A stretch of DNA of 64,000 nt from SAR202 cluster bacterium bin127 (GTDB lineage Bacteria; Chloroflexota; Dehalococcoidia; Lucifugimonadales; Lucifugimonadaceae): NCBI GenBank assembly GCA_002239045.1, contig MPNN01000003.1:62001-126000 (forward strand). Reading direction: 5' to 3'. Of the stretch, positions 30,430-38,850 are shown one piece after another. The translations under genes were made by a program, and so were the position numbers. The notes below the pieces were generated by a model. It searched no databases, was not told where the DNA came from, and was given only the letters and a program-made list of their open reading frames with translations. Position 1 is the first letter of the stretch; each line of letters begins with the position of its first letter.

Positions 30430-31170
30430 ATGGGTATCAATCGCCGGGGGGAGCAGGATGTTAGTTCGCCGTGTTCGGATGTTGAGATTCGGGTGATGTC
30501 GGATAGTTCGACGGGTTCGAAGATGATGACGGTGTTGGAGATTGGGTTGCGGCCTGGGGGTTCGACGCCGTATCAGGCGAATGTTTCGCATGAGGAGTCT
30601 TGGTTCATTTATTCGGGTGATGTGACTTTTATCGAGGGGTCGGTGCGTTATGCGTTGACGTCTGGGGATTGTGTGTTGGTGGCGAAGGGGGTTGGGATGT
30701 CGGTGGAGAACACGGGTTCGGCGCCGGCGCGGATTGTGACGATGAGTCCGGATCCGTCGGTGGTTCGGGAGGAGGTTGAGATGGGGGAGGTGGTTGATGG
30801 ATTGCCGGGGGAGAACGTTTTGATTCGATCGGAGTATGAGGCGTTTGAGTTTGCGCCGGGGGTGATGCGGGTGGATATGGTTGACGACAGCCGGGGGGCA
30901 CGGAGTTCGTATTTTTCGGAGTTGAGTTTTTCGCCGGGGACGCTTACGCCGAACCATTATCATCCGGCGCATGAGGAGACGATGTTTTGCATCGAGGGAT
31001 CGATGACGGCGGTATACGGGGAGGACGATGGGGTTCCGTTGCCGGCGGGCGACGTGTTTTTGTGCGAGCCGTTGGTGCGCCATGCTACGAATAATCCGTC
31101 ATCGGAGCCGAGCAAGTTGTTGGCGATTCACCCGGTGTTGAACCCGCCGCCGCGCGTGATGTGCGATTGA
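30430..31170 (+). CDS. Bicupin-domain protein
   Basis: 246 residues with two cupin barrels. The first carries [18 protein letters not shown] (about 55-75) and a weak metal motif; the second has [18 protein letters not shown] and [19 protein letters not shown], a full two-histidine, glutamate, histidine metal site. Such bicupins are dioxygenases, isomerases or regulators; which is not clear. ATG 30430 is preceded by AAGGAAGG (30416-30423), better than TTG 30424. The last 86 bases are also the antisense end of the giant gene at 31085. Confidence 0.82.
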
Positions 31171-34100
31171 GTAATTTGGAACCGACCAAGATTAACACAG
31201 GTCCGGCCAAAAATAGGAATAGAGCTGACGCGAATGCGAATCTCGGACGTCGATTGGCGTTAGCGACCTTCCCATGAATATCACTTGGCGATTTCATCAC
31301 GGCAACAAACGGGTTGATTTCGTTTATCGCTAGTTCAGACACGTTTGCGCATGTCTTAGTTAGGCCATTTTCGTCATATTGAGTGCTGTCGAAAATCGCG
31401 TCCATCGAGTACTGTTCACCGTTCACTGCTAACTTAGCTACGGAATTTTGCGTGTGCGGATCCGATAATTCATCTGCAGGTGAAATGCAGATACGAATTG
31501 ATTCTGAGAAAACATAATTCGTGGCTTCATTGTCAAATCGTTTGCGACGTGATTCTATTCTAGGAGTGATTTCGAATACATCGGAAACAATTTCGAAGCC
31601 GTTACCAATCTTATAGTTTTTAGAACGATCGGGCATTGAAATCCGTCGAACCGCTAAGAACATTTGGTCGCCCCAAAACATTGAGTGCGAGTCAGCATGT
31701 ATTTCGAATCCCGGAAGCTCGGTTTCATTCTGCAAGACCGTAGAGCGACCGTTGGCGATCGAACTGGTGAAGGGATCGTAGCTGCGAAATCTGACCAACG
31801 TATCGTGCAACTCGATCCTTTGTGCTGCTGGCATGCTGTCGTTCCGTCGATTGAATGCTCGCACGCGCACGCGGTAATTGATGCCGGATTTCATACCCGG
31901 GATCAGTGTGGATTGTTCGGTTGGTGGAATGAACATTGCAAACGTTGGAGGTTCAGGGTACCAATCCACGGAGTAGGCGAGAATGTCCGTGCCACCGTCC
32001 CATCGTGGGTTGTCCCAGTAAGCGACAATGCCTTGACGTCCGTGGACGGCATCAAATTCTTCAGGTGGATCGGGGTCGGTGTCGCGCCTACTCCGGGATG
32101 TAGACCTTGAAGCAGTCGTTGATTGAGGATTTGGCTGAACGGTTGGATTGGGAATGGGAACAGGAGTCGAGGTTGGTGTCGGAGTCGATGGAATCGGACT
32201 TTGATCGGTTCTGACGTACAAGATCAACGGTTCGCTTTGCCAAGGCGGGTTTAGAGCGCGCAACGCTATTTCGTACATGGTCTCTGGTTCCAAGTTTTCA
32301 ATCGTGCGCGAACGAGTGTCGTTAGACAACTGTTCCGTTTTGTCGGTTCCGGGTTGGTCGATGCGTAGCCAAGATAATCGGTATGACGAGAATGGCCGCC
32401 GGATCGTTACTGCATCAACGGCCAGAGCTTTCCATCGCAGTGTGATGCTAGTCTCAGTCGTCTCGGTCGATTCGATTTTCGGTTGTATGGGAATATCGAA
32501 CTTCAATGCAATCTGACCATCGAGTCCCCGCACACCGTCGTAGATCGCGACGACACGGATCTCGTACCTCGCTTTTGCCATGATGCCAGTAATCGTGTAC
32601 TGGTTAGTGGGCGGTTCTAGTGTCACGATTGTCTCTGGGCTCTCGCATTTGTCGGGATCCTCGGGTATGCATTTCCAAACGAGTTCGTAGCTAGTCGGTG
32701 CGGACGGTATCGGCGGTTCTAAATCCCATTTGACCGTTGCTCCGCCATCCGTCAAACTAACGAATTGGACGTCGATTGAGCCGGGTATTGGCGTCGGCGT
32801 GGGACTTGGAGTAGGCGTCGGAGTCGGCGTGAATGTCGCGGTCGGTGTAGGTGTTGGTGTCGCGGTCGGTGCGACGCCGTCGGTCTTTACCAACGGCTTG
32901 GTGCTAGCACGGTTGCCAAATCCATTGCGTGCTAGCAACGTTACTGTGTACGTGGTTCCGGGAGTTAGTCCTTCGATGAGACGCTCTCGTACGGCTTTGT
33001 CCAACGGAACTTTGATGGCAGGAGAGTCGTCATCACTTTTCTTCCACGAAAGTTCGTAGCCACTGACGGGTCGCTGGATCGTTCCTGTATCAACACCCGG
33101 AGCTTGCCATCGCACTGTGATGCTCGTCTCGGTCGTTTCGGTCGTTTCGATTGTCGGTGGTCTGGGAACATCGAACTTCAATGCGATCTGACCATCGGCT
33201 CTCCGCACGCCGTCGTAGATCGCGGCGACGCGAATCTCATACCTCGCTTTTGCCATGATGCCAGTAATTGTGTACTGGTTAGTGGACGCTTCTAGGGTCA
33301 AAATCGTCTCTGGGCTCTCCATCTCGTCGGGATCATCGGGTATGTATTTCCAAACGAGCTCGTAGCCAGTTGGTTCAGGAACACCCATTCCATTCAACGT
33401 CCAACTTATAGTCAGGTCTTTACCTACCAACCGTTCAAACATGACGCTCAACATGGGCGTGGGCGTCGGAGTGGGGGTGGGTGTCGGGGTGGGGGTTGGC
33501 GACGGAGTCGGCGTGAATGTCGCGGTTGGCGTAGGTGTTGGTGTCGCGGTCGGCGCGACGCCGTCGGTCTTTATCTTCCAGCTGACAGCATAGAAGCCCA
33601 ATCCGTTGCGTGCTAACAACGTTACTGTGTACTCGGTTCCGGGAGTTAATCCTTCGATGCGATACTCTCGGGCATCTTCACCCAAGGCAACTGGAATTCC
33701 CACTTCACTCTCGCCCCACGACAACTCGTATCCATCAACTGGCCAATGTCTAAATCCTGTATTTAGGATCGGATCTTTCCAGCGCAACCTGATGCTTGTC
33801 TCTGTTGTCTCGATCGATTCGTCTTTTGGCTTTCTGGGAACACTCAACCACAATATCGTCTGTCCAACGTATCGTTCTTCACCGTCATAGATGGCGACGA
33901 CACTAATCTCATACTCTACTTCTGCCTCAATGTCATTAATCGTGTACTCGCCAGAGGTCGGTTGCAATGTCACAACCGTTTCGGAAGTGTCGTTCGTCTT
34001 ATCTCTCCAACCGAGCTCGTAACCTGTTGGTTCAGGAATATCCGTTTCCTCAAACATCCAACTCACTATTAGATCATCACCCACCAACCGTTTAAACGTG

Positions 34101-35827
34101 ACCTTCAGGGTCGCGGGGATTTGGGTCGGGGTTGGACTTGCCGTTGGGGTGTGAGTCGGCGTGGATGTCGGGGAGGGCGTCGGGGACGGAGTCGATGTCG
34201 GAGTTGGCGTCGGAGTCGGTGTCGGTGTGGGCGTCGGAGTAGCCGTCGGGGTCGGTGTGGAAGTCGGCGTGGCGGTCGGTGTTGGTGTGGGTGTCGGCGT
34301 AGCCGTGGGGGTTGGTGTAGCGGTCGGCGTGGGCGTCGGTGTTGGCGTAGCTGTGGAAGTTGGTGTAGCGGTCGGTGTTGGCGTCGGAGTCGATGTCGGT
34401 GTGGGCGTCGGTGTTGGCGTAGCTGTTGGCGTAGCCGTTGGGGTTGGTGTAGCGGTCGGCGTGGGCGTCGGTGTTGGCGTAGCCGTGGGAGTTGGTGTAG
34501 CGGTCGGCGTGGGCGTGGGCGTTGGGGTTGGCGTAGCCGTGGGGGCTGGTGTAGCCGTGGGCGTAGCGGTCGGAGTCGGTGTGGGCGTGGGCGTGGGAGT
34601 ATTCTGCGGTTCGGTTACCTCGACGGCCGCGGTTGCGGTGTACCGATTACCTGCGTAATGCAAGTCTGCGGTAATTTGATCGACGCCTTGACCCGCCGAT
34701 GTAGGTGCGGTGTAGTTGGCGATCGCGCCAGTCTCTGCGGTAATGGTGCCGTGAGTAGCCGTCCATGTGAGTTCGGCGTTGTCGGGGAGTTGATCCATTT
34801 CGTTGTTGTCGCCGTCGTATACCGTTAACTCGACTTGAGTTGTGGATCCTGTAACCGCTGAGATTTCGACCGGTTCGATCTCGACGCTGGTGATGCATGG
34901 ATCGATGCCGCGCACTCTTAACTTGAGGCCGTCGAACGGCATGACGGGTACATTCGCGTGATCATCATTGAATCTGGCGGTGACGACGGTGGTTTGTTCT
35001 CTGTAGTCGCAATATCGGCCCAGAATTTGGTTTGCAGTAAAGGTCTCTGATTTATTTTCAAAGGTGGAGACATGGCAAGTTACCACGGAGTTTGATGCGG
35101 AACATCCCGTCGGCAGATTGGTGAAGCTTGTGCCAGGATCGAATGAAATGTCGATGCCGGGATCGTCGATCAGTGGCCGACGTTCAACCGTTACGGACCA
35201 GGATGCGATTGCGGATTCGGTGTCGTATCGAGGATCGGCGATGCGGATTTCCGGGCAGTTCAATTGCCGATGTGTGAGGAGCAGGCTCGGATTCGAGGCG
35301 ATGACCGATTGGCCATCGACAGTGGCATCGACTCTCATCCGAACTTTGTTGCCTTCGCAGATATGTTCGAGCGAAGTTGCAAATGTGATGGTGAGGTCGC
35401 TGTCGGCGGCGACTTCGCAGTGCCAACCATCCTTCGTGGCGTCGCAGGCCCCGGTCGTCTCGGTAACGATGGTGCCAATGTGGGATTCTGCGACCACCGA
35501 TAATGTGGCGTCGGACGGACTTCCGTTTTTGAGGACAACATCCCAGTAACCGATTTGGTTGTCGATGTCTTTGCGGGCTGCGCTCACGTTTACATCAAAA
35601 TCGGCTGGGTCGCTCGAACGTTGGAATAGAGATCTGTCGCGCGGCGATGCGGACAGCAACGCAGGAGTGACTATCAGTTGTTGTTCATCATCCTTAGCGT
35701 GGATCAATGATGATTGTTCGTCGTTGACTGGTGATCCGTATGTGACTCCGTATATCGACGCGATCACACAGCTAAACAGAGCTAGTGCAGTTAAGGCAGT
35801 GATTCCGGTGTTTCGTCGAATTCTCAC
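31085..35827 (-). CDS. Very large fibronectin-type/Thr-Pro-linker surface protein
   Basis: 1580 residues from GTG 35827. A signal or anchor helix is at about 10-30. Residues 70-400 hold three beta-sandwich-like domains with paired cysteines, the last resembling a bacterial Ig-like (Big) domain. A Thr-Pro/Thr-Ala-Pro linker of about 160 residues follows (409-570). Then come three modules of two fibronectin-like domains (about 570-757, 791-983, 1014-1210), separated by shorter Thr-Pro linkers, a fourth fibronectin-like domain near 1255-1340, a unique cysteine-containing domain, and a C-terminal helix near 1535-1555 with a short tail. It is most likely a cell-surface, stalked adhesive or structural protein. 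The 3' end overlaps the bicupin gene antisense. Confidence 0.85.
32205..34119 (-). repeat. Three copies of a roughly 570-base fibronectin-module repeat
   Basis: Inside the giant gene, segments near 33556-34119, 32881-33455 and 32205-32785 encode the same two-domain fibronectin module. The last two are very alike at DNA level: both contain cctcgcttttgccatgatgc and the stretch encoding [18 protein letters not shown]. The first is more diverged ([14 protein letters not shown]). This indicates successive internal duplications, with the second and third copies the most recent. Confidence 0.8.
34122..34602 (-). repeat. Thr-Pro linker minisatellite in the giant gene
   Basis: About 480 bases made of a degenerate 6-base unit (GTnGGn on the plus strand, read ACn-CCn on the minus strand) encoding Thr-Pro with interspersed Ala and Ser. 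Higher-order words such as gtcggcgtgggcgtcggtg recur many times. Because the unit is a multiple of three, copy number can change without loss of frame. Shorter tracts of the same type lie at 33455-33560 and 32786-32880. Confidence 0.85.
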
Positions 35828-36990: not shown

Positions 36991-37093
36991 CCCTCTGGAT
37001 CCCGGCTTTCGCCGGAATGACGGACGTTGTGCATACCTCCCTCTCTGGGTGGTCGTTCCGTCCTCTGAAGCGCCGGCTTTCGTCGGAATGACG
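36991..37093. repeat. GGAATGACG palindromic repeats, copies 3 and 4
   Basis: Two copies side by side: CCCGGCTTTCGCCGGAATGA (36999-37018 region) and, at 37042-37093, a longer subtype with cgttccgtc, gaagcgccggctttcg and TCGGAATGACGG. The longer subtype recurs at 37845-37895. Confidence 0.65.
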
Positions 37094-37210
37094 GTGGTTG
37101 TGCACAGACTCGCTTGGCGAGCGGTCCGGGTGTCTCAGGTTGTGGAGAGGGTCCGGACGGGCGGTGTTCGCTGTGTTTTGGGGCAGACTTCGGTTGAGGG
37201 TCCCGTGGTG

Positions 37211-37270: not shown

Positions 37271-37651
37271 TTAGACGAGGTCTACGGCGGCGCCGGCGGC
37301 TTCGAGTTTCTCTTTGGCTTCGTCGGCGGATTCTTTGCTGATCTGCTCGAGGACGACGACGGGGGCGGACTCGACGAGGTCTTTGGCTTCTTTGAGTCCG
37401 AGGGGGGTGACTTCGCGAACGGCTTTGATGACGTTGATCTTCTTGGCTCCGATGTCGGTGATTTTGACGTCGAATTCGGTCTGCTCTTCTTCGACGGCGG
37501 CTTCGGCGACGGCGACGCCTGGGGCCATAGCGACGGCTGCGGGAGCGGCGCTGACGCCGAACTCTTCTTCGATGGCCTTTACGATGTCGGCGAGGTCGAG
37601 AACGGACATCGATTTGATTTCGTCGATGAATTGTTCTTTGGTGAGGGTCAT
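37271..37651 (-). CDS. rplL: Ribosomal protein L7/L12
   Basis: 126 residues: the N-terminal dimerisation helices ([20 protein letters not shown]), an Ala-rich hinge ([20 protein letters not shown]) and the C-terminal factor-binding domain ([20 protein letters not shown], then [13 protein letters not shown]). It forms the flexible stalk that recruits EF-Tu and EF-G. ATG 37651 follows AGGAGA; a longer frame through the upstream repeats is an artefact. It is separated from rplJ by 312 bases instead of the usual few dozen. Confidence 0.97.
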
Positions 37652-37963
37652 TTTGTTTCTCCTGGCCCTTTCGGGCTTTTCTTTTGTGCCCTCACCCTGG
37701 CCCTCTCCCGCCGAGCGGGAGAGGGGAATTGGGGGTTTGGGCTGTCTTTGGTTGCTGGGTTGTGCCCTCACCCTGGCCCTCTCCCACCGAGCGAGAGAGG
37801 GGAATTGAGGATTTGAGCTGTCTTTGGTTGCTGGTTTGTGCCCCCTCTGGATGGACGTTCCGTCCGCTGAAGCGCCGGCATTCGCCGGAATGACGGCGTT
37901 TCACAAAGTCCTCAATGGGAGAGGGGAATTAAGGGCTTTGGGCTGTTGTTGGTTGGTGTTGGT
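37652..37963. repeat. Nested repeats filling the rplJ-rplL spacer
   Basis: Two tandem units of about 76 bases (37685-37760 and 37761-37835) share tgccctcaccctggccctct, a CTCCCGC-cga-GCGGGAG hairpin (perfect in the first unit) and ggctgtctttggttgctgg. A third unit begins at 37836 and ends near 37963 but is interrupted at about 37845-37895 by a copy of the GGAATGACG palindrome family. So one repeat family has inserted into another. No coding frame is expected here. Confidence 0.75.
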
Positions 37964-38503
37964 TTATGCGGCCTCGGATTCGGCGGATTGTCTTTGTTGT
38001 GCGATTTGTTCGAGCATGCTGGCGAGGTTTTGCACGGGTGCGTTGAGGACGCGTGCGAAGGACATTAGGGGTCCGTTGAGGTTTGATGCGAGCATGGCGA
38101 TGAGTTGTTCGCGTGAAGGTAGGTCGGCGATTTGTTTGACTCGGTTGGCGTCGATGAGTTGTTGCTCCATGATGCCGCCGAGGATTTCGACGTTGATGTT
38201 TTGGTCTTTGATGGTGTTGTTGAGGGCTTTCACCATGCTGGCGATGTCGTCATCGGCGACGACGTATGCGGTGGGGCCGTCGATGATTTCGTCGATGTCG
38301 TCGAATCCGAGTTCGGAGGCGGCGATTTTGACGAGAGTGTTTTTGGCGACGAAGACTTTTCCGCCGCCGTTGGTGACGTTGCGCCGGAGTTCGTCCATCT
38401 GGGAAGCGTTGACGTTGGAGTAGCGTGCGGTGACGATGAGTGGTTTGTCACGCATCCGGTCGACGAGGGTGTCCTTCATCTTTGTGTTGCGTTGTGATGG
38501 CAT
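37964..38503 (-). CDS. rplJ: Ribosomal protein L10
   Basis: 179 residues. The N-terminal globular part (LIVTARYSNVNASQMDELRR, then GGGKVFVAKNTLVKIAA) contacts 23S rRNA and the C-terminal helix (VLNAPVQNLASMLEQIAQQR) binds the L7/L12 dimers. Position after rplA and before rplL is the standard order. The 361-base upstream gap contains an L10-type leader, so L10 is expected to control its own synthesis. Confidence 0.97.
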   Translation of the reverse strand: MPSQRNTKMKDTLVDRMRDKPLIVTARYSNVNASQMDELRRNVTNGGGKVFVAKNTLVKIAASELGFDDIDEIIDGPTAYVVADDDIASMVKALNNTIKDQNINVEILGGIMEQQLIDANRVKQIADLPSREQLIAMLASNLNGPLMSFARVLNAPVQNLASMLEQIAQQRQSAESEAA

Positions 38504-38566
38504 GGGTTTATCTTTGCTCTTTCGGGGGTGTATGTTTGGTTTGTAGTTCGGTTTTGGAGGGGGGAA

Positions 38567-38735
38567 TCAAAAGGCCTCGGGCTGGCTGCTGTTTTCGAGA
38601 TTTTGCAGACTGCCGCGAGGCGGAGTGATTGAGTTGGCCTTGGAATTGTTTATGGCCGTATTTCGATCAGCCTCGGCGGGCGACATCGTCTGTCTTTGGT
38701 CTCTGTGGAAGAGCTCCCGCGGTCTGCAGCTAGCG
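38567..38735 (-). promoter_or_regulatory. Ribosomal protein L10 leader with attenuator-like hairpin
   Basis: On the minus strand this region, between rplA and rplJ, reads gcagaccgcgggag, then cagagaccaaagacag and cccgccgagg (38671-38735). These words match the conserved L10-leader RNA, in which L10(L12)4 binds a kink-turn around AGACCAAAGACAG. It is followed at 38567-38620 by a stem CCTCG...CGAGG and a short T run, consistent with an attenuator. The assignment rests on the conserved words; the fold should be checked with the Rfam RF00557 model. Confidence 0.7.
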
Positions 38736-38805
38736 ATTGCGTTTTTTTGCGTGGTTTGGTTTGGTCGGTTTGACTCCGTGGTTTTGCGTGCCCGTTGTTT
38801 TTGTG

Positions 38806-38850
38806 GGTTCCCGCGTCCGCGGGAATGACGGTGTGGTCGCGGGAATGACG
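38806..38850. repeat. GGAATGACG palindromic repeat, copy 6
   Basis: Core TTCCCGCGTCCGCGGGAATG with a second GCGGGAATGACGG tail, just after the rplA stop on the minus strand. The palindrome differs from copies 1-5 in sequence but keeps the GGGAATGACGG tail. Confidence 0.6.

Follow-up and report, generated by a model that had tools for sequence, protein, structure and literature searches.

The 312-nt spacer between rplJ and rplL in the source genome (G000, a 3.0-Mb metagenome-assembled genome) contains an array of three repeat units, built from two families of palindromes that are both dispersed in the genome. In all likelihood, this array is a BIME-like REP mosaic that is tolerated in a permissive rplJ-rplL gap and has grown by tandem duplication, rather than a device dedicated to the control of rplL. 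The surrounding gene set (nusG, rplK, rplA, rplJ, rplL) lies on the minus strand, and the products of the two genes that flank the array, L10 and L12, are needed at a ratio of 1:4 to 1:6.

Anatomy of the array

The spacer extends from the end of rplJ at 37964 to the start of rplL at 37651, and in the direction of transcription its three units follow each other in the order B-A-A. The features are given below in the same direction, with positions referring to the window, i.e., the whole 64-kb stretch of DNA that was analysed.

37964..38503, minus strand: rplJ (ribosomal protein L10), the upstream gene (PF00466, E 2e-19)
37836..37963, minus strand: unit 1, made up of local CA-rich spacer, AATTCCCCTCTCCC, a family-B palindrome replacing the A centre, and GGGCACAA
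37842..37897, minus strand: family-B element, an extended derivative of a CGTC-tagged REP
37760..37835, minus strand: unit 2, 76 nt, local linker plus family-A core
37764..37804, minus strand: family-A core copy 1, sharing 39/41 bases with copy 2
37684..37759, minus strand: unit 3, 76 nt, local linker plus family-A core
37688..37728, minus strand: family-A core copy 2, with an 11-bp stem (-22.9 kcal/mol)
37659..37676, minus strand: small hairpin GCCCGAAAGGGC, followed by the rplL Shine-Dalgarno sequence AGGAG
37271..37651, minus strand: rplL (ribosomal protein L7/L12), the downstream gene, with its start codon at 37651 and its end at 37271 (PF00542 and PF16320)
37002-37094, minus strand: two further copies of family B, beyond the end of rplL

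The initial annotation had described two 76-base tandem units and a third one split by a palindrome of a different family, and we found exactly this arrangement. Units 2 and 3 are tandem direct repeats at a spacing of 76 with 92% identity, and the family-B palindrome lies inside 37836-37963. Unit 1 (37963-37836) has the same start and end as units 2 and 3 (AATTCCCCTCTCCC ... GGGCACAA, minus strand), a different palindrome with CGTCATTCCGGCGAATGCCGG at its centre, and the unit end GGGGCACAA. Unit 3 is followed by the small hairpin, AGGAG and the ATG of rplL; this hairpin is kept in the nearest relative, G004, and other members of the genus have CTCC...GGAGGAG.

The repeat pattern of the spacer is far beyond chance. 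TRF detected it as the sole array with a period >60 in the window, a coding repeat at 34153-34600 apart, and the A hairpin core at <=3 mismatches had 2 matches in the window and 0 in 100 shuffles. Most tandem-repeat hits in the window came from the coding repeats of a predicted 1580-aa protein with long Thr/Pro-rich stretches (31085-35827, minus strand). The strong hairpins that had been noted earlier were recovered as well, the spacer RNA folding at a predicted -129 kcal/mol (z = -5.2).

A whole-genome search of G000 with one unit as the query pointed to a composite origin of the 76-nt unit. Nearly all matches elsewhere hit unit positions 33-73 (TTCCCCTCTCCCGCTCGGCGGGAGAGGGCCAGGGTGAGGGC), which constitute the 41-nt REP-like core of family A. 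The remaining 32 nt or so form a CA-rich linker that had good matches only inside the rplJ-rplL spacer and that resembles the start of the gap itself. As the core is dispersed and the linker is local only, the unit consists of local spacer and one dispersed repeat that were multiplied together.

Tandem copy number can be misjudged in short-read assemblies, which raises the question of whether the units of this metagenome bin are an assembly artefact. We find this hardly credible, since the two A units of G000 differ at 6/76 positions, and since G004, whose assembly consists of one 2.6-Mb contig (OX638325.1), contains a comparable array in which the units are more numerous and the copies have diverged.

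The two repeat families and known REP systems

REPs are defined as short extragenic palindromes, 14-40 nt long in E. coli, that are present in many highly similar copies (PMC12306157). The core of family A is palindromic and short (41 nt, 11-bp stem, -22.9 kcal/mol), families A and B both have many highly similar copies, and most copies of either family were located between predicted genes, as judged from rough gene calls. 'Intragenic' labels at the rplJ-rplL locus are artefacts, because a false plus-strand antisense ORF covers rplL. Family A had 29 matches in G000, 3 of them in the rplJ-rplL spacer and about 26 elsewhere, and was present in 7/7 genomes of the genus; family B was found at 40 places in G000 among the matches listed. 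No orientation bias of family A was seen among the copies between co-directional genes (n = 16), nine of which had one orientation and seven the other.

Canonical copies of family B read CGTC-ATTCCGGC-GAAA-GCCGGAAT-CCA. The pattern without the tail, CGTCATTCCSGCGNANGCSGGAATC, had 132 exact matches in G000, and the canonical CGTC form was found 79 times in G004 and 4-45 times in each other genome of the genus; a reversed-pattern control for this form gave 0 matches. The CCA tail was found in most aligned canonical copies. With their CGTC tag, 8-bp stem starting with AT, 4-nt loop and CCA tail, the canonical G000 copies fit, by sequence, the published CGTC-1 REP family, which they also resemble in having no associated transposase: CGTC-1 was reported without a dedicated one (PMC3733652). 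In contrast, the copy in the rplJ-rplL spacer (CGTCATTCCGGCGAATGCCGGCGCTTCAGCGG...) carries an extra segment that interrupts and replaces the regular 3' arm and displaces the tail. It does not have the continuous 8-bp stem of CGTC-1, directly followed by the CCA tail, and is thus only a derivative of that family. The five phyla for which a survey from 2013 described CGTC repeats do not include Chloroflexi (PMC3733652). The copies described here extend CGTC-type REPs to Dehalococcoidia, for which our literature search found no description of these repeats.

The array shares with the REP/BIME mosaics of E. coli and others the combination of short dispersed extragenic palindromes and linkers in mosaic or tandem spacer arrays, and the copy number of its linker-joined units is likewise variable (B-A-A in G000 versus B-A-A-B-A in G004). 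However, the likeness has limits. The A units are direct repeats, arranged head-to-tail and not as inverted pairs with alternating REP orientation, the linker is a copy of local spacer, and family A is without a recognisable GTAG or CGTC tag. Furthermore, no RAYT gene was found: the Y1 transposase (RAYT/IS200-type, PF01797) that would mark REPs mobilised in the REPIN/REPtron manner was detected in 0/9 genomes, the MAGs being incomplete, and in 5/14 controls by the same search. As no enzyme moving the repeats was found, we infer their mobility from the distribution of the copies.

Neighbouring spacers have been invaded too. A CGTC-type repeat pair is located just after rplA in the rplA-rplJ gap of G000 (about 38805-38850, minus strand) and is absent in G004, as would be expected for a recent insertion or loss, and the same gap contains family A in G006. 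Downstream of rplL, both G000 and G004 have family-B copies, and G002 has a repeat resembling family A. No repeat insertions were seen in the tight rplK-rplA gap (24-46 nt). Elsewhere in G001, family A and a different linker make up a tandem array of three units of 75-85 nt, and in G004 a 260-nt mosaic unit with several REP types is repeated 2.5 times with 96% match (L175:8740-9384). Since similar insertions and arrays occur elsewhere, the rplJ-rplL array is one case of a general habit of the genus.

The rplJ-rplL gap in relatives

In G004, whose L12 is identical to that of G000 at 126/126 positions, the rplJ-rplL gap is 457 nt long and contains five units. The other species of the genus have gaps of 55 nt (G005), 103 nt (G006), 107 nt (G003), and 110 and 112 nt (G001/G002). 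The gap of G005 has no repeat, that of G002 has an unrelated dispersed repeat (family C, 24 matches in the G002 genome), and that of G001 has a sequence closely similar to family C. Thus, between the same two genes, a single genus spans 55 to 457 nt, and the two array-bearing species have the same L12. In an order-wide set of 72 operons most rplJ-rplL gaps are short, with repeat-like inserts seen by eye in a few other members, e.g., G017, G026, G037 and G048.

As to whether relatives have repeats at the same place, which the initial annotation had proposed as a check, the outcome was mixed: G004 does, and G005 and the G001/G002 pair do not have these repeats. Its suggestion of a tolerated insertion site agrees well with gaps of 55-112 nt that have no or other repeats, with a longer array beside an identical L12, and with similar repeats in neighbouring spacers and elsewhere. 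Indeed, short-spacer relatives together with scattered repeats, the sequence side of what had been named as evidence against an altered rplL expression, are what we observed.

We propose that the two REP-like families entered the gap before G000 and G004 diverged. A segment consisting of one repeat and about 35 nt of the CA-rich spacer originally present would then have been amplified by tandem duplication in the manner of BIMEs, possibly by slippage or unequal recombination, which would have led to B-A-A in G000 and B-A-A-B-A in G004. The array would be transcribed with the operon and would form hairpins, and the gap may tolerate it because the rplL start signals beside the ATG stay intact. 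We infer this order of insertion and duplication, as well as the near-neutrality of the array, from sequence comparison. That a short gap or different repeats suffice in relatives points to ordinary tolerated repeat clutter rather than to a dedicated control device. If so, growing repeat arrays are tolerated even between the genes of a core ribosomal-protein operon.

Structured inserts in the same gap of several lineages (G000/G004, G001/G002, G006 and G003) could hint at more than tolerance. This hint is weakened because the hairpin of G006 is not dispersed and that of G003 has only one weak second match. Another explanation for the occurrence of families A and B in G000 and G004, of family C in G001/G002, and of the inserts seen by eye in the wider order would be if the sequence or DNA structure of the gap made it an insertion hotspot, in which lineages gained different repeats independently. 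We regard this as very unlikely: insertions are found in the rplA-rplJ gap and downstream of rplL as well, longer gaps simply have more space for repeats, and it is not clear that the inserts of G006 and G003 are dispersed repeats.

Possible effects on rplL expression

If the array were regulatory, its hairpins could define or protect a processed 5' end of rplL, or halt decay between the cistrons, and in this way raise L12 over L10. Such a function would be in line with the strong hairpins (-22.9 kcal/mol for the A core, z = -5.2 for the spacer) between genes with unequal product needs, and with the other structured inserts in the same gap of several sister species. However, strong folding is expected of any REP array, the same repeats occur at many unrelated sites in both orientations, G005 copes with 55 nt and no repeat, and the many members of the order with short gaps must over-produce L12 too. 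Together with the unchanged accessibility predicted for the rplL start region, these observations make a regulatory array improbable. We give still less weight to a co-opted REP array, in which processing or stabilising hairpins would act through the number of units to tune L12 versus L10, and for which sister species would have recruited unrelated repeats.

The idea that the RNA structures change rplL translation found no support in the predictions. Averaged over the rplL start region, accessibility was 0.69-0.70 with the repeats and 0.70 after their removal in silico. For the four bases GGAG alone, the values predicted with and without repeats were 0.71 versus 0.34 in G000 and 0.52 versus 0.44 in G004, so that no masking of the ribosome-binding site by the array is predicted. 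No terminator-like or promoter-like site serving rplL was found on the mRNA strand of the spacer. Rfam 15 gave no covariance-model match to the spacer at the gathering score, and at E values up to 1 the only hit was a chance match to isrG (E 0.15), located in rplJ on the other strand.

In E. coli, REPs located between cistrons stabilise mRNA or influence its translation, with translational effects reported at a range of under 16 nt from the stop codon (reviewed in PMC12306157). The array resembles these elements in consisting of hairpin-forming repeats within an operon. Unlike them, it has its first hairpin arm about 37 nt past the stop codon of rplJ, which is beyond the E. coli range for translational effects, and relatives with short gaps do without it. 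A small effect of the array on mRNA stability is possible; as far as the sequences tell, the array is most likely not dedicated to setting the L10:L12 ratio. If it did affect this ratio, the genus would provide a natural series for testing.

In the rplA-rplJ spacer, we also noticed a leader of rplJ (38560-38745, minus strand) that is strongly conserved in 7/7 genomes of the genus. Its layout is CTGCAGACNGCGGG ... ATGTCGCCCGCCGAGGCTGAT ... CCGCCTCG ... CCCGAGGC followed by a T-run; its end resembles a terminator, and GCCGAGGC may form a competing pairing. This leader, to which Rfam gave no match, is probably an L10-type autoregulatory leader or attenuator. Covariation in it is weak because most pairs are invariant.

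Lastly, we considered a conserved hairpin beside the rplL Shine-Dalgarno sequence as a special control element. This candidate was rejected, as hairpins close upstream of the start codon were in excess over shuffles at rplL and equally at rplK. The covariation of this hairpin is weak because the genus has only two stem types. In genus g11 (L097, L105, L111, L140 and L143), a GGCC-loop-GGCC-like hairpin is located a few bases before the rplL Shine-Dalgarno sequence, and both of its arms change between species.
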